DNA of 64,000 nucleotides, taken from NCBI RefSeq assembly GCF_900176005.1, contig NZ_LT838272.1, positions 2,871,587 to 2,935,586 of the forward strand. The letters are read 5' to 3'. The translations under genes were made by a program, and so were the position numbers. Shown here piece by piece: positions 24,023-62,699 of the stretch. Below the pieces are notes generated by a model, which saw only the letters and a list, made by a program, of their open reading frames with translations, was not told the DNA's origin and made no database searches. This stretch comes from Thermanaeromonas toyohensis ToBE (lineage in GTDB: Bacteria > Bacillota > DSM-521 > Neomoorellales > Neomoorellaceae). Positions within the stretch are counted from its first letter, which is position 1. Each line of letters opens with the position of its first letter.

Positions 24023-24064
24023 AAAATATAAAAGGCCCATACCGCATCCTTGCGGTGTGAGCCT
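24023..24064 (-). terminator. Expression-platform terminator of the glycine riboswitch
   Basis: On the minus strand ACCGC and GCGGT form an inner stem and AGGC with GCCT an outer one, followed by TTTTATATTTT. It sits between the second aptamer and gcvT, as expected for a glycine-ON switch in which ligand binding prevents termination. Confidence 0.65.
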
Positions 24065-24262
24065 CTGTCCCCTTACCTGAGAGATTAGGCCGCATGGCCT
24101 TACCCCTTTGGTGTCCCCCTGCTATTGTCAAGGAGAACTCTCCAGAGTGGCGTCCGGGAGTAGTACTTTTGCCTGAGAGTTTCCCCCGGCTGCCACCACC
24201 AGCCGGGCTTGCTCCTTCGGCGCCCCCTTTTACCGGGAGTCTCTTCTACTCCTTTCCTCCGC
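24061..24262 (-). promoter_or_regulatory. Tandem glycine riboswitch
   Basis: The gcvT leader has two aptamer-like units in series. The first runs from AGGAAAGGAG through GAGACTCCC, GGCGCCGAAGGAGCAAG and ACTCTCAGGCAAAAG. The second contains GGAGAGTTCT, ACACCAAAGGGGTAAGG and TCTCTCAGGTAAGGGGACAGAGG. CTCTCAGG ending each unit is the hallmark of the glycine riboswitch. Glycine binding is expected to switch on the cleavage operon. Exact ends are approximate. Confidence 0.92.
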
Positions 24263-27958: not shown

Positions 27959-28963
27959 CTACTGGCTTCCACCTTTCTCTTTAGCCTTAAGTGCCCTAAG
28001 TACCCGTTCTGGCGTAGCAGGAAATTCTGTCAGGCGTACTCCTATGGCGTTGTATATAGCGTTCAAAATGGCTGGGGCAGTGGGAAGAGTAGCCGGTTCA
28101 CCTACTCCTTTGGCTCCATAGGGTCCGGTGGGTTCGGGATCTTCTATAATGATCGGTTCTATTTCCGGTATATCCAGGCTGGTAGGAATTAAATACGTAC
28201 TAAAGGAGGGATTAAGGATATTGCCCTGTTGTAAAATTACCTCCTCCATCAAGGCTAAACCTACCCCCATGGCCACACCTCCACATATCTGCCCTATAAC
28301 CCCAGCCTTATTTATAGCTCGCCCCACATCATGGGCTGCGATAACCTTTAAAACCTTCACTTCCCCGGTTTCCGTATCCACTTCTACTTCTGCAATCTGG
28401 ACTCCAAAGGCATAGGGCCAATAAGGTGCTCCTTGCCCGTTTTCATCTAGCTTAGTGGTATGGGCTATAAAGGTACCTTCCCCTACAAGGCGCACACCTT
28501 GTAGCCTAGCCCGGGTGGCAGCTTCAGCAATGGACATCCGTTTTTGAGGGTACCCCAGAACAGTAATATACCCATCGCTTGCTTTAAGGCCCATGATGGT
28601 GTTTACTCCCAGCTCCCGGGCTACAAACTCCAAGAGCTTATCCGCCGCCTTACGGCTAGCCAGTTTCACCGCGTTGCCAGATACATAGGTTTGCCTAGTA
28701 GCGGCTGTCGTCCCCGCATCGGGCGTAGCATCTGTGTCCGCGGAGACTACCGTTACTTTTTCCACCGGAACCCCTATCTCTTGGGCCGCGATCTGGGCCA
28801 GTATAGTGTTAGAGCCCTGGCCACAATCAGCAGCCCCGGTACGTACTGTAACTGAACCATCATCATGGATCTCTACTAAAGCCGTAGATACGTCTGGAAA
28901 CCCGTTACCGTAGCCTATACCATAGAAGGTGCAAGCTATACCTATGCCTCTCTTTTTGGCCAT
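27959..28963 (-). CDS. Molybdenum hydroxylase (xanthine dehydrogenase-like) large subunit, C-terminal half
   Basis: Protein of 334 residues equal to the C-terminal half of a xanthine dehydrogenase molybdopterin subunit. It begins KKRGIGIACTFYGIGYGN, has the cofactor motif AADCGQGSNT and ends with the catalytic Glu in KGVGEPATLP. Family members are normally one chain of about 760 residues; here the other half is encoded just upstream. The ATG follows a strong site (a run of seven G then AGGG). The frame differs from the upstream gene, with stops between, so it is either a true two-gene subunit or a frameshift. Confidence 0.88.
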   Translation of the reverse strand: MAKKRGIGIACTFYGIGYGNGFPDVSTALVEIHDDGSVTVRTGAADCGQGSNTILAQIAAQEIGVPVEKVTVVSADTDATPDAGTTAATRQTYVSGNAVKLASRKAADKLLEFVARELGVNTIMGLKASDGYITVLGYPQKRMSIAEAATRARLQGVRLVGEGTFIAHTTKLDENGQGAPYWPYAFGVQIAEVEVDTETGEVKVLKVIAAHDVGRAINKAGVIGQICGGVAMGVGLALMEEVILQQGNILNPSFSTYLIPTSLDIPEIEPIIIEDPEPTGPYGAKGVGEPATLPTAPAILNAIYNAIGVRLTEFPATPERVLRALKAKEKGGSQ

Positions 28964-28978
28964 GTTCCCTCCCCCCTT

Positions 28979-30241
28979 TCATTTCAATCTTTCTACTTCC
29001 CAACCGGCAGCACGGGCAGCAGCTAAAAGGCAAGCTTCCAGCCCCACACTGCTCTCCAGCACTTGGCCAGTAGCCGTCACACTCCCCTGGCGTAAAATGT
29101 TACGCCAACGGATGGTAAAAGGATGAAGCCCCAGTTCAGCAGCCAATAGATCCATCTGGCCCTCATAAGCTAGAGGAGGCTGGGTAGCTCCAAAACCCCG
29201 CATAGCACCGGTAAAGGGATTATTGGTATATACTGCATAGGCATCAATTTTGACATGGGGAACATAATAAGGCCCAGTAGCATGCACAGCCGCCTTGCGC
29301 AATACATTAGGTGACCAGGAAGCATAAGCCCCGCTATCTCCGATGATCTCTGCTTCCACGAAGGTCAAACGTCCGTCCCGGTCCGCGCCCGTGGTATATC
29401 TCATTATCATAGGATGACGTTTGCTATGGGAGTAGAAGGATTCTTCGCGGGTATTGACCATCTTAACCGGGCGACCGGTATGCAAAGCTAACAAGGCAGC
29501 CAATATCTGCAAGGTCATATCCTCCCGAGCACCAAAAGCGCCGCCTACCGCCGTAGTAATCACCCGCACACGCGTCTCAGCTACTCCTAGCGCACGAGCT
29601 ACTTCCACTCGGTCCCAATGGGGATACTGGGTAGCCACATGGATTTCAATATGCCCTCTCTCATCTACCCTGGCCACTACCGCCTCAGGTTGTAAAAAAG
29701 CATGCTCCATCATAGCCGTGCGGTAGGTTCTGGTAACTATTGCGGCCGCCGCTTTCCGGCCTATCTCTATACTTCCGCGCCTTATCTTGATATGATAAAG
29801 GATATTCCCGTCTTCATGTACCAGAGGGGCCCCCGGCTTCATGGCCTCCAAAGGATCGAAAACAGCTGGTAAGGGTTCATATTCGATGTCAATGGCTTCT
29901 GCCGCCTCTTCTGCTGCCTCCTCGCTTTCAGCTGCTACTACGGCCACTACATCGTTAACCGAGCGGACGCGGTCAGCTACCAGTACAGGCATATGGGGTA
30001 TAAGGACGCCGTGCCCATTATGCCCTGGGACATCCTCCGCCGTTAAAACAGCCACCACCCCTGGAATTTTGCGGGCTCTCTCCACTTCCACCTTCTTTAA
30101 CCGTGCGGAAGCTATCGGTATACGGCGGGCTTTCCCGTATAACATCCCAGGGAATGTAATATCGGCAGGATACATAGCGCGTCCCGTAACCTTAGCTGGT
30201 CCCTCGATGCGGCCCACAGGTTGCCCGATTAAGCTTTCCAA
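28979..30241 (-). CDS. Molybdenum hydroxylase (xanthine dehydrogenase-like) large subunit, N-terminal half
   Basis: Protein of 420 residues equal to the N-terminal half of a xanthine dehydrogenase molybdopterin subunit. It carries GPAKVTGRAMYPADI at the start, GGAFGAREDM and GAMRGFGATQPPLAYE, which bind the cofactor from this side. It ends at TGA after GWEVERLK, and the next gene resumes the family sequence about five residues later, so almost nothing is lost. TTG start with GGAGGTG seven bases upstream. The purine riboswitch lies directly before it. The FAD and Fe-S subunits are not adjacent; the nearest unpaired ones are at 56.1 and 58.4 kb. Confidence 0.88.
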   Translation of the reverse strand: MESLIGQPVGRIEGPAKVTGRAMYPADITFPGMLYGKARRIPIASARLKKVEVERARKIPGVVAVLTAEDVPGHNGHGVLIPHMPVLVADRVRSVNDVVAVVAAESEEAAEEAAEAIDIEYEPLPAVFDPLEAMKPGAPLVHEDGNILYHIKIRRGSIEIGRKAAAAIVTRTYRTAMMEHAFLQPEAVVARVDERGHIEIHVATQYPHWDRVEVARALGVAETRVRVITTAVGGAFGAREDMTLQILAALLALHTGRPVKMVNTREESFYSHSKRHPMIMRYTTGADRDGRLTFVEAEIIGDSGAYASWSPNVLRKAAVHATGPYYVPHVKIDAYAVYTNNPFTGAMRGFGATQPPLAYEGQMDLLAAELGLHPFTIRWRNILRQGSVTATGQVLESSVGLEACLLAAARAAGWEVERLK

Positions 30242-30257: not shown

Positions 30258-30364
30258 AAAAATAGGTGACCGGAACCTTAGGGAAAAGGATTTTCCCCTT
30301 CGTAGTCAGGTGATTCCGGTCACCTGGTAGAGACCCCCAGCCCTATTGCTGGGGTTATACGAAG
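30258..30364 (-). promoter_or_regulatory. Purine riboswitch (guanine type) before the split xanthine dehydrogenase genes
   Basis: Aptamer at 30298-30364: P1 CTTCGT/ACGAAG, J1/2 ATAA, P2 loop with GGG, J2/3 GTCTCTACC, P3 loop CCGGAA, and J3/1 GACTACG. The C in GACTA (position 74 of the B. subtilis xpt aptamer) marks guanine/hypoxanthine class. Downstream, TTCCGGTCACCT (30264-30275) is perfectly complementary to the P3 arm plus loop (30314-30325) and is followed by ATTTTT. Six bases of it (TCACCT) can also pair with the ribosome site AGGTGA. A ligand-ON terminator is favoured, but translational control is possible. Confidence 0.9.
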
Positions 30365-30382
30365 GTTAAGCTATAAATTAAG

Positions 30383-48381: not shown

Positions 48382-49317
48382 TTACCTTTCTTCGCGGTCA
48401 TATGGAATAGCTAAAGCTCCCGGAGCTCCCACGTGTTTTACTATGGTCTGACGGGTGGCCACGATTAGGACCAGCACAGTAAGGATATACGGCAGCATCT
48501 TTAAGAAGAAAGAAGGAATAGAAATTTTGGTAGCCGCTTGCAAAGTATAAACTAAGGAATCTACTCCTCCGAAGAGATAAGAGCCCAGCAAAGCTCTTAC
48601 CGGATCCCATACAGCAAAGATAACCAAGGCTACGGCGATCCATCCACGACCGGCAGTCATGTTTTCCAACCAAGTAGGGGCATAAGCCAGGGAAAGGAAA
48701 GCTCCACCGGCCCCAGCCAGCATCCCGCCAAGCACAACATAAATATACCGGAGGGCAAACACATTTACTCCTAAAGCGTCGGCTGCCGCCGGGTTTTCTC
48801 CCACTGCCCGTAAATTAAGTCCCGGCCGGGTGTGATAAAGGTAATACCAAAGAAGGGGAACAAGAAAATAAGTTAGGTAAACGAGGGGATTGTGTTGAAA
48901 GAAAACCGGACCGATAACAGGTACCTGGGATAAGCCCGGAACAGCCACAGCTTTGAAAGTGGTGGGCAAGGGTTGCCCGATATAGGGCTTACCCAAAAAG
49001 CCGCTCAACCCTGTACCGAAGAGGGTTAGAGCCAAACCGGTTACCACCTGATTGGCCCGCAGAGTTATGGTTAAGAAAGCAAAGATCGAGGCTAAAGCGC
49101 CAGCAGCCACCATGGCTGCTAGAAACCCTAACCACGGGTTGGCGGTCCTAGCCGTAACTATGAACCCCGTGACCGCCCCCACCAGCATCATTCCTTCTAC
49201 CCCTAAGTTTAACACCCCGGCCCGCTCAGCCAGTATCTCCCCTAAGGCGGCGTAAAGGATAGGGGTACCGGCAGTAATGGCCGCGGCCAGGGCAGCTATC
49301 CAGACGGAAACCTCCAT
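48382..49317 (-). CDS. nupQ: Nucleoside ABC transporter permease (NupQ/YufQ type)
   Basis: Permease of 311 residues of the BMP-linked branch of the branched-chain type ABC importers. About eight to nine hydrophobic segments; AGTPILYAALGEILAERAGVLNLGVEGMM at the N-terminus is characteristic, along with the LRAVGENPAAADALGVNV loop. It forms the channel with NupP. ATG four bases after the nupP stop; last gene of the operon, followed by a terminator. Together with the purine riboswitch upstream of bmpA this supports nucleoside or purine uptake. Confidence 0.93.
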   Translation of the reverse strand: MEVSVWIAALAAAITAGTPILYAALGEILAERAGVLNLGVEGMMLVGAVTGFIVTARTANPWLGFLAAMVAAGALASIFAFLTITLRANQVVTGLALTLFGTGLSGFLGKPYIGQPLPTTFKAVAVPGLSQVPVIGPVFFQHNPLVYLTYFLVPLLWYYLYHTRPGLNLRAVGENPAAADALGVNVFALRYIYVVLGGMLAGAGGAFLSLAYAPTWLENMTAGRGWIAVALVIFAVWDPVRALLGSYLFGGVDSLVYTLQAATKISIPSFFLKMLPYILTVLVLIVATRQTIVKHVGAPGALAIPYDREER

Positions 49318-49320
49318 GGT

Positions 49321-50391
49321 TTATGGGGTAACCTCCTTCCTTTTCCACCGTAAGCGGTAGCGGGTTAATATCTCCCCTCCCAAGACAAAGAAGAGTATAG
49401 CACCCTGCAGCATGGATACTGTAGCCGCAGGTACCCCCATCTTTTGAACACTATAACCTCCTACAATTAGGCCTCCAAAAAGGAAGGAGACCAAAATAAT
49501 AGTAACGGGATGAAGCTTGGCTAGCCAGGCGATAATAATAGCGGTATAGCCATATCCAGGGGAAATACCATGCTGGAGACGATGGGTTATCCCGGCTACC
49601 TCGCTCATACCAGCTAGTCCTGCCAGGGCCCCACTTAAAAACATGACCAGTAAAATATTGCGTTCGATTTTGATACCGGCATATCTAGCCGCCCGGGGGC
49701 TTTCCCCAGTAATCCTTATCTCATAGCCCCACCGGGTCCGCCACAGAATAATGGTCAAGATAATGGCAGCTATGAGGGCAAAAACTAATCCCAAATGTAC
49801 CCGTGTTCCCACTAAAGTAGGGAGGGTAGCCGATTTGCTAAAAGGTGCTGTAAGGGGAAAGTTAAAGCCTTGGGGATCTTTCCAGGGACCGTAAACTAAG
49901 TAGTCCACCCAAAGGATGGCTACATAATTGAGCATTAAGGTGGTTATGACTTCGTTCACACCCCATTTGGCCCTAGGTATAGCAGGAAGCAAGGCCCATA
50001 ACCCGCCCAGGAGACAGCCCATCACAAACATAGCTGGTAGCATAATATAGGGGGGCAGATAAGGAAAGCTCAAAGCTATCCAACTTGCGCCCAAGGCTCC
50101 CATATAAAACTGGCCTTCAGCTCCGATGTTCCAGAGGAGCATGCGGAAGGCCACCGAGACTCCTAAACTCGTTAACATAAGGGGGATAGCTTTGACGACG
50201 GTTTCCGAAACCCCGTACTTAGAACCTATTACTCCTTTTAACATCTCCCCGTAAACCTTTAGGGGGTCAAAACCCGTCATAAAGAGGAAGAAAGCTCCCA
50301 GGACCAAGGCTAAAATTATAGAAGATACAGGTATTAGGACTGTCATCCAGGGTGAAGGGGAAAGCCTCTTTTCCCACACGATCCTGGTCAT
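49321..50391 (-). CDS. nupP: Nucleoside ABC transporter permease (NupP/YufP type)
   Basis: Permease of 356 residues with about eight to ten hydrophobic segments. Typical are the N-terminal GFDPLKVYGEMLKGVIGS, NIGAEGQFYMGALGASW and ITGESPRAARYAGIK. It overlaps nupO by four bases (ATGA), so synthesis is coupled. Pairs with NupQ to form the channel. Confidence 0.93.
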   Translation of the reverse strand: MTRIVWEKRLSPSPWMTVLIPVSSIILALVLGAFFLFMTGFDPLKVYGEMLKGVIGSKYGVSETVVKAIPLMLTSLGVSVAFRMLLWNIGAEGQFYMGALGASWIALSFPYLPPYIMLPAMFVMGCLLGGLWALLPAIPRAKWGVNEVITTLMLNYVAILWVDYLVYGPWKDPQGFNFPLTAPFSKSATLPTLVGTRVHLGLVFALIAAIILTIILWRTRWGYEIRITGESPRAARYAGIKIERNILLVMFLSGALAGLAGMSEVAGITHRLQHGISPGYGYTAIIIAWLAKLHPVTIILVSFLFGGLIVGGYSVQKMGVPAATVSMLQGAILFFVLGGEILTRYRLRWKRKEVTP

Positions 50392-51902
50392 GCGCTGACC
50401 TCCATTCTTTTAGCTCCTGCCATCATTAGTCCTAGCTCTTCTACATCCGCCTGGTCAGTAGGAACTATACCCATGATCTCTCCTTCATAAAGGACAGCTA
50501 TACGATCGGCTAGGCGGAAGAGTTCTTCCAAATCTTCCGAAATAAGGAGAATAGCTGTCCCCGCCGCCTTTTGTTCTAAAAGGAGCCGGTGTACTGTCTC
50601 CGTGGCTCCTACATCTAATCCTCGCGCCGGGTATACAGCTACCAGTACACGGGGGCGGCTAGATATCTCCCTAGCCAAAAGTAAGCGCTGAAGGTTGCCA
50701 CCCGACATCATTTTCACTGGAGCTTCTAAGCTAGCTAGCTTAACTTGGAAGCGTTCTATCAGTTCTTGAGCCCACTGCCGGGCTGCCCGCCGGTTAAGGA
50801 GGACTTTTCCCCACCGGGGATGGCGGTACTCCTTTAAAAGCAGGTTATCTACGGCCCCCAAGTTAGGTACTAAACCCATACCCAAGCGGTCTTCAGGGAT
50901 GAAGCTCACTCCCGCAGCGATAACCCGGCAAGGGTCGCAGTGTATAATCTCCTTCCCCTCTACAAGAATAGATCCCTTTAAGGCCGGTCTTAAACCTGCG
51001 ATAACCTCGGCCAGCTCCCGCTGTCCGTTTCCGGCTACCCCGGCAATACCTAATATCTCGCCAGCGGCCACCGAAAGGTTTATACCCTTAAGGGCCAGCA
51101 ACCCCTTATCATTCAGGGCTTGAAGGTTCCTTATCTCTAGCATAACCCGGCCTTGGGGAGGCCTTTTTTTATCCCCTGTCCAAAAGATCTCCCGCCCCAC
51201 CATAAGCCGGGCTAGCTCTCTCTCGTTGGTCTCCTCTTTTTTGACCGTAGCTACTCTCCTACCATGGCGTAAAATAGTAATGGTATCGGCTGCCTCCATA
51301 ACCTCCTGTAGCTTGTGGGTGATAAAAATAACGGCACAGCCCTCAGAGGCCATTTTCCGTAAAGTCCGATAAAGCTCTCGGGCTTCTTGCGGAGTTAAAA
51401 CAGCCGTAGGCTCATCCAGAATAAGCACCCGGGCGCGCCGGTAAAGGAGCTTTACTATTTCCACGCGCTGTTGTTCACCTACGGATAGCTGCCAGATGCG
51501 GGCGAAGGGATCTACCTTCAGCCCATACTTTTCGGAAAGCTCGGCTATTTCTTGCGCCAGTTGGTTGAGATTAAGTTTGATACCACCTTTTAACCCTAAG
51601 GCCACATTTTCCGTTACTGTAAAGGGTGCCACCAAGCGAAAGTGTTGGTGGACCATACCTATGCCCGCCGCTATAGCATCCCGCGGTGAACGAAAATAGA
51701 CCCTTTTCCCTTGAACATAAATTTCCCCGCTATCAGGGCGGTATAGGCCGGTGAGGATGCTCATCAGGGTGCTCTTCCCTGCCCCGTTTTCCCCTAAAAG
51801 GGCATGGACCTCCCCAGCCCGAACGGCTAAATCTACCCTATCATTGGCCACTACCCCAGGAAAAACCTTGGTGATATTACGCATTTCAACCAAAGGCGTC
51901 AC
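50388..51902 (-). CDS. nupO: Nucleoside ABC transporter ATP-binding protein (NupO/YufO type)
   Basis: Tandem ATPase of 504 residues. First half: Walker A GENGAGKST, IGMVHQHFRLV (family-specific) and LDEPTAVLTP; second half: GVAGNGQRE and MMSGGNLQRLLLAREI. It energizes NupP/NupQ. GTG start behind GGGAGGC. It is 211 bases after bmpA; the gap holds a long hairpin. Confidence 0.94.
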   Translation of the reverse strand: MTPLVEMRNITKVFPGVVANDRVDLAVRAGEVHALLGENGAGKSTLMSILTGLYRPDSGEIYVQGKRVYFRSPRDAIAAGIGMVHQHFRLVAPFTVTENVALGLKGGIKLNLNQLAQEIAELSEKYGLKVDPFARIWQLSVGEQQRVEIVKLLYRRARVLILDEPTAVLTPQEARELYRTLRKMASEGCAVIFITHKLQEVMEAADTITILRHGRRVATVKKEETNERELARLMVGREIFWTGDKKRPPQGRVMLEIRNLQALNDKGLLALKGINLSVAAGEILGIAGVAGNGQRELAEVIAGLRPALKGSILVEGKEIIHCDPCRVIAAGVSFIPEDRLGMGLVPNLGAVDNLLLKEYRHPRWGKVLLNRRAARQWAQELIERFQVKLASLEAPVKMMSGGNLQRLLLAREISSRPRVLVAVYPARGLDVGATETVHRLLLEQKAAGTAILLISEDLEELFRLADRIAVLYEGEIMGIVPTDQADVEELGLMMAGAKRMEVSA

Positions 51903-52113: not shown

Positions 52114-53241
52114 TTAACGCGGGATTTCTCCTTCTACTCCTTCTACAAACCAATTTACCCCTAGAACTTCTTCATGGCTCATCCTCTGGCCCTCAGGCAC
52201 CCTGACCTTGCCACTTTGATCTTTAATAGGACCCTGGAAGACGTAGAACTGCCCATTTATGATCTCTTGCTTTTTCTTCGCTACCAGATCCCGCACCTCT
52301 TGCGGAACTATTTCATTAATGGGAGCAAGATCCACAATACCATCTTTCATGGTACCATAATATTGCTCAGACTTCCAGGTACCATTCTTGACAGCCTCTA
52401 CCGTCTTAACATAGAAGGGTCCCCAGTTCCATACAGGAGAAGTCAAGTTAGCTTTGGGAGCAAACTGGCGCATGTCAGAATTGTACCCGATACCATAGGC
52501 ACCCCTTTCCTGAGCTGCTTGCTGGGGCCCTGGAGTATCCTGGTGTTGGGCAATAACGTCAGCGCCGGCATCTAAGAGGCTTAAGGCAGCCTGCTTTTCC
52601 GCTGCCGGGTCGTACCAGGTATTTGTCCATACCACCTTTACCTTAACTTTAGGATTTACTGAACGGGCTCCTAAAGTAAAGGCATTGATCCCGCGGATAA
52701 CCTCTGGGATGGGATGGGCTGCCACATACCCTAGGATATTGGACTTGGTCATCTTACCTGCCACTATACCTGAAAGGTACCGTGGCTCTTCCATGGCACC
52801 AAAATAGGTACCTACATTGGGCGCCGTCTTGTAACCAGAGCAGTGCTCAAAGACAACCTGGGGATATTTTTCCGCTACCTTAATGACATAATCCATGTAG
52901 CCGAAACTTGTGGCAAAGATAACTTTATTTCCCTGTTCAGCTAGCTCGGTCAGGACCCGCTCTACATCCGCTCCCTCAGGGACGCTCTCCAGGTAAGAAG
53001 TGGTTACCCAAGGTAATTTTTGTTCTAAATATTTTCTTCCCTGATCGTGGGCCCAGGTCCATCCGGCATCACCTACAGGTCCCACATAGATAAAGGCTAC
53101 TTTCATTTTCTCTTCCTTAGCCTGACCACCTTGTGGGCTTCCTCCCTGAGGGGCAGACTGTTTCCCCCCACATCCTGCTAATAATAAAACTGTAAGGAGC
53201 AAAGCAAAACCCACTAACCCTAGCCGCTTGATCTTTACCAT
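52114..53241 (-). CDS. bmpA: BMP-family nucleoside-binding lipoprotein
   Basis: Basic membrane protein family lipoprotein of 375 residues, the binding component of a nucleoside ABC importer. Lipobox LLAGC (Cys24), then VAFIYVGPVGDAGWTWAHDQGRKYLE, SYLESVPEGADVERVL, FATSFGYMD and AHPIPEVIRGINAF, all typical of BmpA/PnrA proteins. ATG at 53241 has GGAGG just upstream; an in-frame GTG four codons earlier overlaps that site. It is controlled by a guanine-type riboswitch and preceded by a SigH-like promoter. Confidence 0.95.
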   Translation of the reverse strand: MVKIKRLGLVGFALLLTVLLLAGCGGKQSAPQGGSPQGGQAKEEKMKVAFIYVGPVGDAGWTWAHDQGRKYLEQKLPWVTTSYLESVPEGADVERVLTELAEQGNKVIFATSFGYMDYVIKVAEKYPQVVFEHCSGYKTAPNVGTYFGAMEEPRYLSGIVAGKMTKSNILGYVAAHPIPEVIRGINAFTLGARSVNPKVKVKVVWTNTWYDPAAEKQAALSLLDAGADVIAQHQDTPGPQQAAQERGAYGIGYNSDMRQFAPKANLTSPVWNWGPFYVKTVEAVKNGTWKSEQYYGTMKDGIVDLAPINEIVPQEVRDLVAKKKQEIINGQFYVFQGPIKDQSGKVRVPEGQRMSHEEVLGVNWFVEGVEGEIPR

Positions 53242-53369
53242 TTTAACCTCCACCTACTTTCCTTCGAGGTTTTAAGTTTTAAATTTTAAAGTAATCTTTT
53301 GAGGGGTTTATCTTTGAGCTCTAAAGCTCTTCTTCTTTACCTTTCCCCTCACCCCCTTTTTAACCCATT

Positions 53370-53480
53370 AAAAAACCAGGTCAACCGCTTCAACCCCACG
53401 AAGAACCAAGCTTCGTAGTCAGGTGATTTGCGGTCACCTGGTAGAGACCCCCGGACCGATTACCGGGGTTATACGAAGCT
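53370..53480 (-). promoter_or_regulatory. Purine riboswitch (guanine type) before bmpA
   Basis: Aptamer at 53409-53480: P1 AGCTTCGT/ACGAAGCT, J2/3 GTCTCTACC, P3 loop CCGCAAA, J3/1 GACTACG with the guanine-type C. The P3 arm ACCAGGTGACCGC (53430-53442) can pair with downstream GCGGTTGACCTGGT (53375-53388), which runs straight into a six-base U-tract. Forming the aptamer would break this terminator, so ligand should switch transcription on. A competing classical OFF arrangement through ACGAAG/CTTCGT exists but gives a weaker terminator. Confidence 0.92.
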
Positions 53481-53574
53481 CTTATAAAACTCTTAATAAA
53501 TATAGGTTTTACTACTATGCAAATACGTAAAGGCCACTTTGATTATTCATATAGGGTTCCTACTATAAAATATA

Positions 53575-56106: not shown

Positions 56107-56964
56107 CTATAAAGCTTGGATTGCGGTCTCCAGGGCCCGCCGGACCAACACCCTTACCATTTCTTTCCTATACGCCCGCGAACCACGAAGTAAGCTGTCC
56201 CGGGGCTGGGCAAGTTCGGCCGCTATCTTGGCCGCCTCTTGTATTTTTTCCTGGCTAACCTTGGCTCCTATCAGAGCTTCTGCTGCCTCCTGGCAAAGGA
56301 AGGGCTGTGGAGCTACCGGCGCTACACAGATACGCGCCCTTTCCCAGCGGCCATCTTTAATTTGGACCCGCACAGCAACATTAAGAATGGGTAAGGATAA
56401 AGCCCGGCGAGGTGAAAGTCGGACAAAGGCCGAAGCTTCTCCTTCTCCCCATTTGGGTACTAAAAATCTCCCCAGGAGTTCCCGAGTACTGTCCACTTTA
56501 GAGCGCCCTACTCCTTCATATAAATCTTCTACGGCTACCCTCCTCTTCCCCTGCGATCCCCATATTTCCGCTTCCGCTCCCAAGGCTACCAAGGCCACTG
56601 CCGTATCGGCCGCCGGCTGCGCATTAACTACATTCCCAGCCAGGGTACCTACATTACGGATCTGGGGCGAGCCTACAGAAGAAGCCGCCTGGGCTAAAGC
56701 AGGAAGCTTTTCCCTGATAAGCGGAGATGTAGCAGCCTCTCTATGGGTTACCCCGGCACCTAGACTTATAGTATCCTCTTTCTCCTGGATGAGGTTTAAC
56801 TCCGGGATGCGGGTTATGTCCACGAGTACCCGGGGTTGCAAGCGCTTCTTCTTTATATCTATGATCAGATCCGTACCGCCCGCTATGATTCTGGCCCCTT
56901 CATAGGTGTTGAGCATCTCCAGGCATTCGGATACAGAATGGGGAAAAAGGTAAGCAGAAACCAT
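56107..56964 (-). CDS. Molybdenum hydroxylase FAD-binding subunit (CoxM/XdhB-like)
   Basis: FAD subunit of 285 residues of the xanthine dehydrogenase family. FAD motifs are IIAGGTDLI (about 26-34) and NVGTLAGNVVNA (about 103-114). It passes electrons from the Fe-S subunit to an acceptor. It is third in a group Fe-S subunit, ssnA, FAD subunit. No molybdopterin subunit is in this group; the split one at 28-30 kb is the best candidate partner. ATG behind GAGGAGG. Confidence 0.92.
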   Translation of the reverse strand: MVSAYLFPHSVSECLEMLNTYEGARIIAGGTDLIIDIKKKRLQPRVLVDITRIPELNLIQEKEDTISLGAGVTHREAATSPLIREKLPALAQAASSVGSPQIRNVGTLAGNVVNAQPAADTAVALVALGAEAEIWGSQGKRRVAVEDLYEGVGRSKVDSTRELLGRFLVPKWGEGEASAFVRLSPRRALSLPILNVAVRVQIKDGRWERARICVAPVAPQPFLCQEAAEALIGAKVSQEKIQEAAKIAAELAQPRDSLLRGSRAYRKEMVRVLVRRALETAIQAL

Positions 56965-57048
56965 ACTAAATAAAATCCTCCTCCCGACCTAGCTTAAATA
57001 GAAAACATGCTTATTTTTACTTAAAGGTCAGGGCGGTAGCTGAAAGCT

Positions 57049-58374
57049 CTAAAACCTTTCCCAGACTTTTTGGGCTAGCTTACGGGCCCGGGCTGCAATG
57101 GCAGCTTCATCTAAATGGAGAAGCTCTCTGTTGTGCATAAGGATCTTCCCACCAATGATGGTGGTATTCACTCGACCTCCATGAAAGCCGAAAAGTAAGT
57201 GGCCGTACCAGTTTTCACCTGTAAAGGGCGTGGGAGGTTCGTAATCCACTAAAATTATATCTGCATATGCGCCGGGAATTAGGCGCCCTAATGGACGAGG
57301 GTAGAAGGCTTGCAGGATACGGGTATTATTGGTGAAGGCCATAGTAGGAATCTCCTGCCATCCAGCGCTGGGATCACCGCTTACAAATTTACGCAGGACA
57401 TTAGCTACTTTCAAGGATTCAAACATATCGCATGTATACCCGTCAGTACCCAAACCTACTATCACACCGGCAGCTAACATCTCTCCTACGGGAGCGCATC
57501 CCACAGCGTTACCCATATTAGATTCCGGATTATGCACCACCATGGTTCCCGTATCTCGCAGGATACCTATTTCCCTTTCGGTAACGTGGACGCAATGGGC
57601 GGCGATGGTACGAGGTCCCAAAATCCCTTTATCAGCTAGCCTTTCCACCACCCGCTTACCAGAACGTTCCAGAGCATCCTCTACGTCCTGGATGCCTTCC
57701 GCCACGTGAATATGGAAACCACAGCCCAGCTCCTCTGCCGCCTCCCGGCAAAGAGCCAATGTCTCATCGGACAAGGTAAAAGAAGCATGTAGACCAAAGG
57801 TAGCGGAAAGCAAGCCCTCCCGGTTGCGATACTTCTTAATGGCTTCCACGTTTTCTTCTATGCCTTTCCGCGCTATCTCCGGGCCATCCCGGTCGGAGAC
57901 TTCATAAGCCAGGCAAGTACGTACCCCGACCTCCTCTACTGCCCTAGCTATAGCCTCCAGACTCCCTCGTACAGCCCGGGGGCTCGCATGGTGATCCAGT
58001 ATGGTAGTGGTACCGCATTTAATGCACTCTATAAGGGGTAAGAGGGCGCTATAATAAACATCTTCCAAGGTCAGAGCTTTATCCAGCCGCCACCACAGCC
58101 GCTCCAGTATCTCCAAAAAATTGGTGGGAGGCGGATCTTTCAAGGCCATCCCCCGGGCAAAGGTGCTATAAAGGTGCATATGGGTGTTGGTCATACCCGG
58201 CATTATGATTCTGCCACCGGCATCTAGGAATTCTGCCTCTGGATAAGTTTCCTGTAGCTTGCGGGTAGGACCAATAGCTACGATTTGGTCCCCTTCTATA
58301 ACTACGCCCCCTTCCTCTTGATAGGGAGCCTCCGGATCCAAAGTCAAAAGGCGACCATTGCCTATGATAAGCAT
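57049..58374 (-). CDS. ssnA: Putative aminohydrolase SsnA
   Basis: Amidohydrolase of 441 residues. Metal ligands: TNTHMHLYS, FHIHVAEG, AAHCVHVT and GTDGYTCDM. LERLWWRLDKALTLEDVYYSALL and TTILDHHASP match my knowledge of the SsnA group, which is linked to selenium-dependent molybdenum hydroxylases and purine breakdown. The physiological substrate is not established to my knowledge; ring deamination or opening of a purine-derived compound is likely. It starts two bases after the Fe-S subunit stop and is followed by the FAD subunit gene. Confidence 0.9.
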   Translation of the reverse strand: MLIIGNGRLLTLDPEAPYQEEGGVVIEGDQIVAIGPTRKLQETYPEAEFLDAGGRIIMPGMTNTHMHLYSTFARGMALKDPPPTNFLEILERLWWRLDKALTLEDVYYSALLPLIECIKCGTTTILDHHASPRAVRGSLEAIARAVEEVGVRTCLAYEVSDRDGPEIARKGIEENVEAIKKYRNREGLLSATFGLHASFTLSDETLALCREAAEELGCGFHIHVAEGIQDVEDALERSGKRVVERLADKGILGPRTIAAHCVHVTEREIGILRDTGTMVVHNPESNMGNAVGCAPVGEMLAAGVIVGLGTDGYTCDMFESLKVANVLRKFVSGDPSAGWQEIPTMAFTNNTRILQAFYPRPLGRLIPGAYADIILVDYEPPTPFTGENWYGHLLFGFHGGRVNTTIIGGKILMHNRELLHLDEAAIAARARKLAQKVWERF

Positions 58375-58376
58375 GT

Positions 58377-58850
58377 TTACTCTCCCCTCGCTATAACTTC
58401 CGCCGCTTTCTGTACAGCGCGCACTATTTGGCTATAGCCGGTACAGCGGCAGAGGTTGCCGGAAATAGCTTCTTTAATTTCTTCTTTAGTGGGACAGGGG
58501 TTGCTATCCAAGAGGGACTTGGCGCTCAAAATCATCCCCGGTGTACAGAAACCACACTGCACAGCACCTTCAGAAATAAAGGCCTCTTGCAAGGGATGTA
58601 GCTTTTGGCCTTGGGCCAGGCCTTCAATGGTAGTAACCTCCCGGCCTTCAGCTTTAGCTGCTGGAAGGAGGCAAGAAACCACCGCCACTCCGTCTAAAAG
58701 CACAGTACAAGCTCCACATTCCCCTTCCCCACACCCCTCCTTGGTACCTGTTAATCCTAAATAATCCCGCAGAAGCCGGAGCAGGGTAATTCCAGCCGGT
58801 GCCTCTACTTGGACTTCCTTTCCATTCACTTTAAGCCTAAACTGCCGCAC
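58377..58850 (-). CDS. Molybdenum hydroxylase [2Fe-2S] subunit (CoxS/XdhC-like), first copy
   Basis: Two-cluster iron-sulfur subunit of 157 residues. The plant-type cluster cysteines lie in GCGEGECGACTVLLDG, the second cluster in QCGFCTPGM and LCRCTGY. GTG at 58850 is chosen for its AAGGAGG site; the frame open to 58904 adds 18 residues that lack family features. First gene of the group with ssnA and the FAD subunit. About 28 kb from the split molybdopterin subunit that lacks its own Fe-S gene. Confidence 0.93.
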   Translation of the reverse strand: MRQFRLKVNGKEVQVEAPAGITLLRLLRDYLGLTGTKEGCGEGECGACTVLLDGVAVVSCLLPAAKAEGREVTTIEGLAQGQKLHPLQEAFISEGAVQCGFCTPGMILSAKSLLDSNPCPTKEEIKEAISGNLCRCTGYSQIVRAVQKAAEVIARGE

Positions 58851-58975
58851 GAGCCCTTCCCTCCTTTCTTCCCGAAAACCAACTCTAAAACAACTTGAAC
58901 TCACCTTAATTTCCTAAAGTATAGCCAGTTTCAGTCCCAAGACTGCTCGTGGCTTTAGCTTGCCCTCAAAATTTA

Positions 58976-59001
58976 ATTCTTTTTAAGTCCGGGCCTTTCC
59001 T
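58976..59001 (-). promoter_or_regulatory. SigH-like promoter for the Fe-S/ssnA/FAD group
   Basis: Minus strand AGGAAAG, 15 bases, GAAT in AAGAATTAAATTTTG. AGGA to GAAT is 22. It is less conserved around the core than the xanthine dehydrogenase promoters. It lies 125 bases before the GTG start. Confidence 0.4.
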
Positions 59002-59046
59002 TTCAAGCCTAACTAGCCTTTCGGCAGCTTAGCAGTAACTTAAGAC

Positions 59047-59508
59047 TTAGTCAGCCAGCGCTTTTTCTACAGCTTTAATAATGTTCTGGTAACCTGTACA
59101 GCGGCAAAGATGGCCAGATAACTCCCTTTTAATTTCTTCCCTTGTATACTTCTTACCGCTTTCTACCAGGGCCGTAGCTGTAAGTATATAACCGGGTGTA
59201 CAAAAACCACACTGGATGGCTCCCTCTTCTATAAAGGCTTTTTGTACCTTGGAAAGCTCACCATTCTTAGCTATACCTTCTATGGTTACTATATTTTTAC
59301 CTTGAGCCCAGACAGCCAAGTAAATACAAGAGTCAATGGGGATGCCATCGATGAGAACGGTACAAGCCCCGCATTCTCCCACTCCACACCCTTTTTTAAC
59401 GCCTGTATATCCCAAACGGTTTCGCAAAACTTCAAGGAGCGATTCGCGAACGTCAACTTCTAAGGTTTCCTGTTTTCCGTTTACTACAAAGGAAATTTTT
59501 TTAAGCAA
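59047..59508 (-). CDS. Molybdenum hydroxylase [2Fe-2S] subunit, second copy
   Basis: Iron-sulfur subunit of 153 residues, related to the copy at 58.4 kb. Cysteine motifs GCGVGECGACTVLIDG, QCGFCTPGY and LCRCTGYQNI are complete. It overlaps the FAD subunit gene by eight bases, so it belongs to a full three-subunit operon. The start appears to be TTG, with GAGGAG very close; no better start is visible. Confidence 0.92.
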   Translation of the reverse strand: MLKKISFVVNGKQETLEVDVRESLLEVLRNRLGYTGVKKGCGVGECGACTVLIDGIPIDSCIYLAVWAQGKNIVTIEGIAKNGELSKVQKAFIEEGAIQCGFCTPGYILTATALVESGKKYTREEIKRELSGHLCRCTGYQNIIKAVEKALAD

Positions 59509-60385
59509 TCTCCTCGCCCCCTGCCTTTATAATGGCCACTTTTAAGGCCCTCTGGGTAAGCTCCTCCACCAAGTGCTCCCTGTATTCTTTGGAAGCCCTC
59601 CAGGAAGTTCTTGCTTTCGTCGATTTAACTGCTAGTTTTCCAATTTCTGCTATGGTCTGGGCGGAAATGCTCTTGCCTTTGGCATAGGCTTCTGCTTCCA
59701 GACATCTCAAAGGAGTTGGACCCGCCACTCCCAGCCCGATCCTGACATCTTCAAAAATACGACCTTCCTTTATTTTGCAAAGCACAGCCACGCCCAAAAT
59801 AGCTATATCCATGGCTTTACGGGCAGAGAATTTAATATAGTGCCCCCCATAGCCCATATAATCCTCTGGGGAAATGATAATCTCAGTAAGGAGTTCCCCT
59901 GGTCTTAAATCAACTTTTCCGGGGCCCAGGTAAAACTCTTGAATGGGAATGATCCTCTCCCCTTGCTCGCTCTTTAATCTTAATTTAGCGTTTAGGGCGA
60001 ATAAGGAAGAAGCGCTGTCTGCCGAAGTGGCGCCGTTACAAATGTTGCCACCTATGGTAGCCACATTACGGATCTGCGGTCCACCCATAGATAAAGCGGC
60101 TTCCGTTAAGATAGGGATATTTTCTTTAATAACAGGATTATTGATAATCTGGGTGAAAGTGGTCAGTGGCCCGATGATAATTCTTCCGTCCTTAAGTTTC
60201 CGAATACCTTCCAAGGATTTTATTTTGCGGATGCTGAGTAACTCTGCTTTTTGTACCTCGCCATGATGTATTTTAATTAAAACATCGGTGCCGCCCGCAA
60301 TGACGATTAAATTAGGATTGGCCGCCAAGAGTTTTGTAGCCTCATCTATCGTTTCCGCCTCAAAATAAGCTTTTATATCATACAT
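59501..60385 (-). CDS. Molybdenum hydroxylase FAD-binding subunit, second copy
   Basis: FAD subunit of 294 residues. FAD motifs IVIAGGTDVLIK and NVATIGGNICNGATSADSA are visible, and RKAMDIAILGVAV is typical. ATG at 60385 is chosen because GAGGAGGGG is just upstream; the frame open to 60403 starts within that site. It is 22 bases after the molybdopterin subunit gene and overlaps the Fe-S gene. Confidence 0.93.
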   Translation of the reverse strand: MYDIKAYFEAETIDEATKLLAANPNLIVIAGGTDVLIKIHHGEVQKAELLSIRKIKSLEGIRKLKDGRIIIGPLTTFTQIINNPVIKENIPILTEAALSMGGPQIRNVATIGGNICNGATSADSASSLFALNAKLRLKSEQGERIIPIQEFYLGPGKVDLRPGELLTEIIISPEDYMGYGGHYIKFSARKAMDIAILGVAVLCKIKEGRIFEDVRIGLGVAGPTPLRCLEAEAYAKGKSISAQTIAEIGKLAVKSTKARTSWRASKEYREHLVEELTQRALKVAIIKAGGEEIA

Positions 60386-60407
60386 AAAGCCCCTCCTCAC
60401 CACCTTC

Positions 60408-62699
60408 TTATATTAACCCGGCTTCTTTAAACTTCTCAAAGACCCGCTGGGGGTAAAGGGGTAACCGGTTAAAGGCTACACCTGTGGCATCTAGAACGGC
60501 ATTCCGGATGGCAGGAGCTACAGGCAGGACAGGTGGCTCCCCTAATGACTTATTTCCAAAGGGACCCGTGGGCTCAAAGGTTTCCACAAAGGCTACCCCG
60601 ATTTCTGGGATATCCATTATAGAGGGGAGTTTATAATCTAGTAGGTTGTTGTTAAGGGGCTTCCCGGTCTTTTCATCAAACAACATCTGCTCTAAAAGGG
60701 CATAGCCTATCCCCATGCTCACGCCGCCGTGAACTTGTCCTTCGGCCAATTGGGGGTTGATAATTTTACCAGAATCGTGCACGTTATATATCTCCAGGAT
60801 CTCGATCTTCCCCGTCCTGATATCTACTTCTACCTCCACAAAGGTTGCACCAAAGGTATAAGCGTTCACCCTAGCATTATTGGAAACATCGCTGGTTATG
60901 GGTTGGGCAGAAACAAGATCATAGTAACTCCTTAAAGCTACTTCGGAGAGGGGCATAACCACATTTCCTGTATCTTTATAAACGATATTCTGGTCCTTAA
61001 TATCCAAAGCATGGGCAGGTATACCGGTCATAGAACATGCAAAGTCAAGGATCTTTTCCTTAACTTCTAAAGCTGCTTTCCTTACTGCCATACCTGTAAT
61101 ATAAGTTTGCCTAGAGGCATAAGCACCGGTATCAAAGGGTGTGATATCTGTATCCTGGGTAGAAATTACATGCACCATATCCACCGGGATACCTAATATC
61201 TCTGCGGCCATCTGAGCAAAGACAGTATCGCTCCCTTGGCCTATTTCGGCAGCACCGATCTGCAATTGGATGGAACCATCCTGGTTAAGGACGATTCTGG
61301 CTCCTGCTATTTCCTGGCCCGCCGGGTAGGTCCCGGAAGCGTAACTGAAACAGGCCATCCCTAACCCCCTGCGTCTATAACCTGTCTGATTTTTATACCG
61401 CTCTTTTTTCTCCTCCCACTTAATTAATTCCTTGCCTTTTTCAATGCACTCCCTTATCCCGCAACTCCTTACCACATTTCCATTTAAGGGATCTACATAG
61501 CCCACCTGGACCAAGTTTTTCTTACGGAATTCAATGGGATCCATATTTAGTTTTCTAGCAATATCTTCTAGATGGCATTCCACAGCAAAGGTTATCTGGG
61601 GAGAACCATAACCGCGCATGGCCCCGGCCACGGGCAGGTTAGTATACACAGTGTACGGCTCATATTTTAAGGCTTTCATGGGGTATAAGACCCTAAATTT
61701 AGAACCCCCGGCCATAAGAATAGAATGGCCATGGGAGGCATAGGCACCGGTGTTGGAGATGGCGATTATATGCATTCCAATCAATTTTCCGTCTTTGGAA
61801 ACACCGGTTTTAATTTTATATCTGATAGCATGCCGGGTCCGGGTATCGATCATACATTCTTCCCTGGATAGCTCAAGTTTTACCGGCCTTCCACCCACAG
61901 CCAAAGTCATAGCGGCAACTAAAGGCTCCAGGCAAACATCTTGTTTGCTCCCAAATCCGCCGCCCACATAAGGCTTAATTACCCGCACCCTTCCCCAGGG
62001 AATACCTAAAGCTTGGGCGACAATTCTCCTTACAATATGGGGGATCTGGGTGGAGGTTATAATTACAATACGGCCATCGCTATCTACATAAGCACAGGCT
62101 ACATGGTTTTCTAACTGGCAGTGCTGTACAATGCTTGTTTCATATTGGCCCTCAAAAATATAATCAGCTTCTTTAAAAGCTTCCTCAATATCCCCAATCT
62201 CATACCCCGTAGAGCTTACAATATTTCTTTCACAGTCTTCATGGATTTTAGGTGCGCCTTCCCTCATGGCCTCTTCAGGATCAAACACCGGTTCCAATAC
62301 TTCATACTCTACCTCAATCAATTTCAGGGCTTCCTCTGCTATTAATTCGTCAGTTGCCACTACTGCTGCAATAGCATCCCCCACAAAGCGTGCTTTGTTG
62401 GTTAAAATAGTCCGGTCTTCTTTATCCCTGTGCTTGGGGTCTAAGGCATAGGGATGGCCTGCAGTAGCAAATTTGTTCTGCGGGACATCTTTATAAGTTA
62501 AAACTGCTTCTACGCCGGGTAAGGCTTTGGCTTTGCTGACCTCGATGTTTTTAACAAGGGCATGGGCATAAGGGCTTCGTAGTATTTTCCCTACGAGCAT
62601 ATTTCTTTCTAAAAAGTCACTGGCATATTTCGCTTGACCGGTAACTTTGGCAATAGCATCCACCCTGGCAACGCTTTTCCCCACCACTGTAAAAGCCAT
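60408..62699 (-). CDS. Molybdenum hydroxylase (xanthine dehydrogenase-like) molybdopterin subunit, intact copy
   Basis: Catalytic subunit of 763 residues, the usual length. It has RVDAIAKVTGQAKYASD, the cofactor motifs GGGFGSKQDV, GAMRGYGSPQ and AEIGQGSDT, and the catalytic Glu in SLGEPPVLP. In the region that is split in the copy at 28-30 kb it reads straight through (KNQTGYRRRGLGMACFSY). Substrate may be xanthine, hypoxanthine or another N-heterocycle. It heads a three-gene operon with FAD and Fe-S subunits; ATG behind GGGAGAG. Confidence 0.94.
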   Translation of the reverse strand: MAFTVVGKSVARVDAIAKVTGQAKYASDFLERNMLVGKILRSPYAHALVKNIEVSKAKALPGVEAVLTYKDVPQNKFATAGHPYALDPKHRDKEDRTILTNKARFVGDAIAAVVATDELIAEEALKLIEVEYEVLEPVFDPEEAMREGAPKIHEDCERNIVSSTGYEIGDIEEAFKEADYIFEGQYETSIVQHCQLENHVACAYVDSDGRIVIITSTQIPHIVRRIVAQALGIPWGRVRVIKPYVGGGFGSKQDVCLEPLVAAMTLAVGGRPVKLELSREECMIDTRTRHAIRYKIKTGVSKDGKLIGMHIIAISNTGAYASHGHSILMAGGSKFRVLYPMKALKYEPYTVYTNLPVAGAMRGYGSPQITFAVECHLEDIARKLNMDPIEFRKKNLVQVGYVDPLNGNVVRSCGIRECIEKGKELIKWEEKKERYKNQTGYRRRGLGMACFSYASGTYPAGQEIAGARIVLNQDGSIQLQIGAAEIGQGSDTVFAQMAAEILGIPVDMVHVISTQDTDITPFDTGAYASRQTYITGMAVRKAALEVKEKILDFACSMTGIPAHALDIKDQNIVYKDTGNVVMPLSEVALRSYYDLVSAQPITSDVSNNARVNAYTFGATFVEVEVDIRTGKIEILEIYNVHDSGKIINPQLAEGQVHGGVSMGIGYALLEQMLFDEKTGKPLNNNLLDYKLPSIMDIPEIGVAFVETFEPTGPFGNKSLGEPPVLPVAPAIRNAVLDATGVAFNRLPLYPQRVFEKFKEAGLI

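Follow-up and report, generated by a model that had tools for sequence, protein, structure and literature searches.

A predicted guanine-responsive ON riboswitch whose terminator shares the P3 arm of the aptamer, upstream of bmpA in Thermanaeromonas toyohensis

The purine-use region and its genes

The analysed stretch of the Thermanaeromonas toyohensis genome (64,000 nucleotides, hereafter the window) contains a purine-use region flanked by riboswitches. The region includes a bmp ABC transporter, two xdh-type clusters, SsnA, YgeY, carbamate kinase, a 5'-deoxyadenosine-deaminase-like protein and a glycine-cleavage cluster, the last identified by eye from the ORFs. The genes behind the two purine riboswitches described here are as follows.

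52114-53241 (-): bmpA, a PnrA-like purine-nucleoside binding lipoprotein (Pfam Bmp, E 1.9e-65)
48382-51902 (-): ABC ATPase and two BPD_transp_2 permeases of the bmpA transporter (Pfam and ORFs)
27959-30241 (-): xanthine-dehydrogenase-type molybdopterin subunit in two ORFs, 28979-30241 and 27959-28963 (Pfam MoCoBD_1)

The bmpA gene starts with the ATG at 53241, preceded by GGAGG at 53251-53247. NCBIfam XDH models match the molybdopterin subunit ORFs, all below cut-off. These ORFs encode 420 and 334 aa, and the Moorella orthologues also open with an ORF of about 427 aa, suggesting that the split of the subunit may be natural. A second, full xdh operon (XdhA, XdhB, XdhC and SsnA) lies at 56107-62699 (-) and has no aptamer in the window; Moorella copies of operons like it carry a short ON leader of the P3-arm type described below. 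A tandem glycine riboswitch (RF00504, 66.1 and 45.8 bits) was found at 24063-24258 (-), followed by a gcvT-like ORF and others that resemble glycine-cleavage genes. Because anaerobic purine breakdown yields glycine, we infer that the layout of the region fits purine fermentation.

A guanine-type aptamer in the bmpA leader

The bmpA leader matches the Rfam Purine family with 83.9 bits and an E value of 1.2e-13 in cmscan (gathering threshold 37 bits), and our own model R1 places the aptamer core with 84.3 bits. The first-pass annotation had described a guanine-type aptamer before bmpA that is a near-copy of one before xdh, and the Rfam scores of both leaders agree with this. The parts of the two leaders are listed below.

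53396-53496 (-): purine (guanine-type) riboswitch aptamer RF00167, P1-P1 core at 53410-53479 (cmscan and model R1)
53472-53479 (-): P1 5' strand GCUUCGUA (Rfam alignment and fold)
53430-53442 (-): J2-3 ACC, P3 5' arm and start of L3 (ACCAGGUGACCGC), doubling as the terminator 5' arm (fold and duplex energy)
53420-53426 (-): P3 3' arm UCACCUG (Rfam alignment)
53410-53417 (-): P1 3' strand UACGAAGC, whose CUACGAAG pairs with 53396-53403 in the terminator fold (folds)
53396-53403 (-): CUUCGUGG, predicted P1-invading strand, terminator upper stem (folds)
53375-53388 (-): terminator 3' arm GCGGUUGACCUGGU (folds and shuffles)
53370-53375 (-): U6 tract (sequence)
30283-30382 (-): sister guanine-type aptamer before xdh (cmscan, 81.3 bits; folds and shuffles)
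30328-30314, 30275-30263 and 30262-30258 (-): P3 5' arm, terminator 3' arm and U tract of the xdh leader (folds and shuffles)

In the Rfam alignment, the junctions of the bmpA-leader aptamer are guanine-type (GUCUCUACC and GACUA) and have no insertions. The guanine-I pocket is kept, with C74, U22/U47/U51 and no J2-3 or J3-1 insertion, positions being numbered as in the xpt structure. A C at position 74 together with canonical junctions is the guanine signature, and the aptamer is predicted to be guanine-type and to bind guanine. A guanine-II or xanthine-II identity was considered and rejected, since the J2-3 insertion is absent and U51 is kept (features as in PMC9295807). A guanine-PRPP tandem arrangement was likewise rejected, as no further Rfam match was found near 53300-53400 and the sequence motif of the tandem is absent.

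A predicted terminator that competes with the aptamer

The P3 5' arm and L3 of the bmpA aptamer (53442-53430) pair with 53388-53375, immediately before the U6 tract. The first-pass annotation had placed the P3 5' arm correctly, but gave the U6 tract the coordinates of the terminator 3' arm (53388-53375); the six U residues lie at 53375-53370. The minimum free energy fold of the leader is this P3-arm hairpin (-46.7 kcal/mol), compared with -38.4 to -40.8 kcal/mol for the aptamer fold. The duplex of the P3 arm and the terminator arm alone has -20.8 kcal/mol, and none of 500 downstream dinucleotide shuffles was as strong. The earlier claim that the P3 arm forms the 5' half of the best hairpin before the U6 tract is thus confirmed. 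The arm duplex of the xdh leader reaches -22.5 kcal/mol, matched by 0 of 500 dinucleotide shuffles. The two platforms had been said to differ in sequence and keep their geometry, and this holds: the distance from the start of the P3 arm to the U tract is 67 nt for bmpA and 66 nt for xdh, and that from the P1 3' region to the U tract is 39 nt in both.

The bmpA terminator draws on the ACC of J2-3, the P3 5' arm and the CCG of L3, so that P3 and the L2-L3 contact are destroyed, and the P1 3' strand is taken up into its inner hairpin. In folds of the growing transcript, the aptamer was present by 53408, stayed to 53380 and was displaced at 53376, that is, once the 3' arm is transcribed; the terminator appeared only then. 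Constrained folding in the absence of ligand favoured the bmpA terminator by 5.9 kcal/mol at 37 °C and 3.8 kcal/mol at 60 °C, a gap that ligand binding could close. For the xdh leader the advantage was 10.7 kcal/mol at 37 °C and 8.6 kcal/mol at 60 °C, which are rough figures because the folded stretch extends beyond its U tract.

An ordinary guanine OFF switch of the xpt/yxjA type would require a different layout, in which the ligand breaks an antiterminator and frees a terminator independent of the aptamer. The guanine-I logic described so far is OFF (PMC9295807), and many bmpA leaders of other lineages score as OFF-type. However, we searched the bmpA leader for an OFF design that combines an independent terminator with an antiterminator and found none. 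A stronger aptamer-independent terminator, the result named at the outset as contradicting the ON reading, did not appear: neither the folds nor a consensus scan of the leader gave one of similar strength, and the best aptamer-independent hairpin has -5.3 to -8.4 kcal/mol (Eind -5.3; local hairpin -8.4) versus about -21 kcal/mol for the arm duplex. The local -8.4 kcal/mol hairpin is partly built from P1 3' nucleotides, and it could terminate some transcripts in the bound state. The same scoring rule calls xpt OFF (-22.7) and pbuE ON, both control sequences having been entered by hand. Instead of the OFF platform, which is usual for guanine-I but plays no part in defining the aptamer, the bmpA leader has an intrinsic terminator stem that includes aptamer strands, as in pbuE-like terminator disruption. 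We regard an OFF switch at bmpA as very unlikely.

Homologous leaders in the class

The T. toyohensis genome (3.33 Mb) contains three purine riboswitches, before bmpA, xdh and an NCS2 permease gene, all scored as ON-type. The NCS2 leader has P3 3'/J3-1 as its terminator arm, followed by a weak U tract. The covariance search of related genomes for P3-arm platforms that the first-pass annotation had proposed was run on 22 genomes of the class, including Moorella stamsii, M. sulfitireducens, M. thermoacetica DSM 21394 and Moorella sp. UBA4076, which share a family but not a genus with T. toyohensis; searches at the order and class levels gave the same genomes. Leader aptamers were located by Rfam coordinates and model R1, and 54 purine aptamer matches yielded 53 leaders after removal of one duplicate. 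All 41 non-tandem leaders are ON-type with aptamer-overlapping terminators, under a platform rule that was revised to take in leaders with weak U tracts and whose thresholds were tuned on the same data. They precede xdh (22), bmpA (11), NCS2 (7) and amidohydrolase (1) genes. The other 12 leaders are tandem (PRPP-type), called by a sequence motif with no covariance score behind it, and all lie before purE. In one NCS2 leader (L024), two consecutive terminators overlap the aptamer, an example each of the P3 3'/J3-1/P1 type and the P3 5' arm type. As far as sequence can tell, the P3-arm platform is a family-wide design, beyond a second instance of a local oddity.

Among the 36 leaders of the P3-5'-arm type, the P3 5' arm, the P3 3' arm and the terminator arm covary in three ways, at positions 7 and 8 of the arm. 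The pair found at position 7 is U-A or C-G, and that at position 8 is G-C, A-U or U-A, in P3 and terminator alike. The mean pairing energy of each arm with its own partner was -18.3 kcal/mol versus -16.3 kcal/mol for permuted partners, and 0 of 20000 permutations were as good, with the same outcome for 27 collapsed pairs; relatedness inflates such tests, and there are four arm haplotypes, one of them seen in a single leader.

These data bear on the idea that the P3-arm complementarity arose by chance and that the leader is not switched through it. The loose ON feature, found in 56/56 ON leaders (which were selected for it) and 0/61 OFF-type leaders, also occurs in 41 of 560 shuffled downstream sequences, or about 7%. 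At the observed strength, however, no shuffle in 500 sufficed, and the complementarity is kept across genera, covaries and lies immediately before the U tract, which makes chance a very improbable explanation.

Polarity and gene function across the phylum

From 199 genomes of the phylum we read 110 leaders (30 + 80 loci), and a scan for BmpA in named genomes contributed further leaders linked to bmpA; one scoring rule was applied to those outside the class, the taxon sampling is uneven and the taxa are related. Leaders of xdh subunit or amidohydrolase genes comprised 8 ON and 4 others, versus 0/47 ON before purine biosynthesis or salvage genes (Fisher p = 2e-7, relatedness ignored). The bmpA leaders were 4 ON, 10 OFF-type and 8 tandem, and the NCS2 leaders 1 ON, 15 OFF-type and 13 tandem, the remaining 2 being unclear. 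The share of OFF-type and tandem leaders before bmpA counts against the ON reading. Among the 4 xdh or amidohydrolase leaders not scored as ON, L222 has a P3-arm complement (-16.3 kcal/mol) followed by a weak U tract. The other three (L076, L188 and L197) precede a divergent molybdenum-hydroxylase subunit of the FAD-binding kind and, unlike the remaining xdh leaders, seem to carry OFF-type platforms. Two adenine-type (U74) ON leaders precede an adenine deaminase gene and an MFS gene. Guanine-PRPP-type tandem leaders stand before bmpA-type genes of other lineages (L093, L102, L104, L132 and L136), so that one transporter family is wired in three ways: ON, OFF and tandem.

Related ON platforms are, by sequence, present in other families of the phylum. 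The overall pattern probably reflects a polarity-reversed guanine-I regulon with an unchanged pocket, in which ON switches, many of them acting through invasion of the P3 5' arm and L3, would precede uptake and oxidation genes, OFF tandems would control synthesis in related genomes, and polarity would track gene function across several families.

Proposed mechanism

Computation gives the aptamer, a hairpin that excludes it, the conservation and covariation of that hairpin, and no rival terminator. From these we infer ligand binding, polarity and stepwise strand invasion. To form, the sole strong hairpin before the U tract has to recruit P3/L3 nucleotides, which the aptamer would retain once ligand is bound, and this points to ON logic; with an aptamer-overlapping terminator and no comparable independent one, ligand should favour read-through. 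We consider the bmpA leader likely (probability of about 0.85) to be a guanine-sensing transcriptional ON riboswitch acting by antitermination.

In the model, P2, P3 and then P1 would form as RNA polymerase moves off the aptamer. With guanine present (or hypoxanthine or xanthine, which would be weaker for such a pocket), the pocket would close, P1, P3 and the L2-L3 contact would be held, and transcription would go on into the bmpA operon. With no ligand, the fresh CUUCGUGG would capture the P1 3' strand, after which GCGGUUGACCUGG would pair with L3 and the P3 5' arm, and transcription would end at the hairpin ahead of U6. Purine would thereby induce both its import, by way of the bmpA ABC transporter, and its oxidation, with the sister switch turning on the xanthine-dehydrogenase-type enzyme. 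That external purine induces both uptake and oxidation had been suggested from the two leaders, and the class-wide pattern strengthens this reading into a strongly indicated one.

The ON mechanism might also operate with hypoxanthine or xanthine as the main natural ligand, a refinement suggested by controlled genes that handle these purines. Guanine-I pockets disfavour them by only about 10-fold (PMC9295807), and xanthine or guanosine is the preferred ligand of some purine riboswitches in C. difficile (PMC11477304). In the bmpA aptamer, however, C74 and the canonical junctions are present, and the U51G change and the J2-3/J3-1 insertions of xanthine-II are absent; we thus view a main ligand other than guanine as possible but the less probable case.

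If the guanine-sensing ON reading is true, the guanine-I aptamer, the textbook feedback OFF switch, also lets purine, as substrate, induce the genes for its import and oxidation, and whether the switch acts as ON or OFF depends only on the aptamer strand that is open to invasion by the downstream sequence. The leaders would then form a natural series in which to follow the reversal of riboswitch logic during evolution, and a source of guanine-inducible ON parts from thermophile relatives.

Comparison with known purine riboswitches

Guanine riboswitches lower expression when guanine is plentiful (PMC9295807), and all four purine riboswitches of C. difficile are OFF (PMC11477304). The B. subtilis xpt-pbuX and yxjA guanine-I riboswitches (RF00167) have the same fold, pocket nucleotides and transcriptional control as the bmpA leader, and yxjA also controls a nucleoside transporter. 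Both are OFF (PMC9881172; PMC9756952), whereas the opposite sign is predicted for the bmpA leader because its terminator overlaps the aptamer. In the open-access literature, to which our search was limited and whose silence is therefore weak evidence, we found no description of a guanine-I switch that turns xdh or bmpA ON; the search for guanine ON switches before xdh yielded only reviews and the papers on the variant classes.

The guanine-PRPP tandem also has a guanine aptamer in the same organisms and precedes bmpA in some other lineages. It differs in its second, ykkC-type aptamer and shared platform, and in the class it controls purE rather than bmpA or xdh (PMC5912903). ON logic has been predicted for guanine-II, xanthine-II and a 2'-dG variant (2'-dG-III), reported from Paenibacillus, Propionispira and Clostridium, and xanthine-II precedes purine-degradation genes including xdh (PMC9295807). 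These classes share the scaffold and the predicted logic of the bmpA leader, but carry junction insertions or pocket changes that are absent from its aptamer.

B. subtilis pbuE is also switched ON by breaking an aptamer-overlapping terminator, as predicted for the bmpA leader. However, pbuE has an adenine pocket (U74) instead of C74, and its terminator is formed from the P3 3' arm, J3-1 and the P1 3' strand, arms that resemble those used by the NCS2 leaders of the class, whereas the outer stem of the bmpA terminator is formed from the P3 5' arm and L3. With its predicted ligand and polarity, the bmpA leader would be a known riboswitch that carries a new kind of expression platform.
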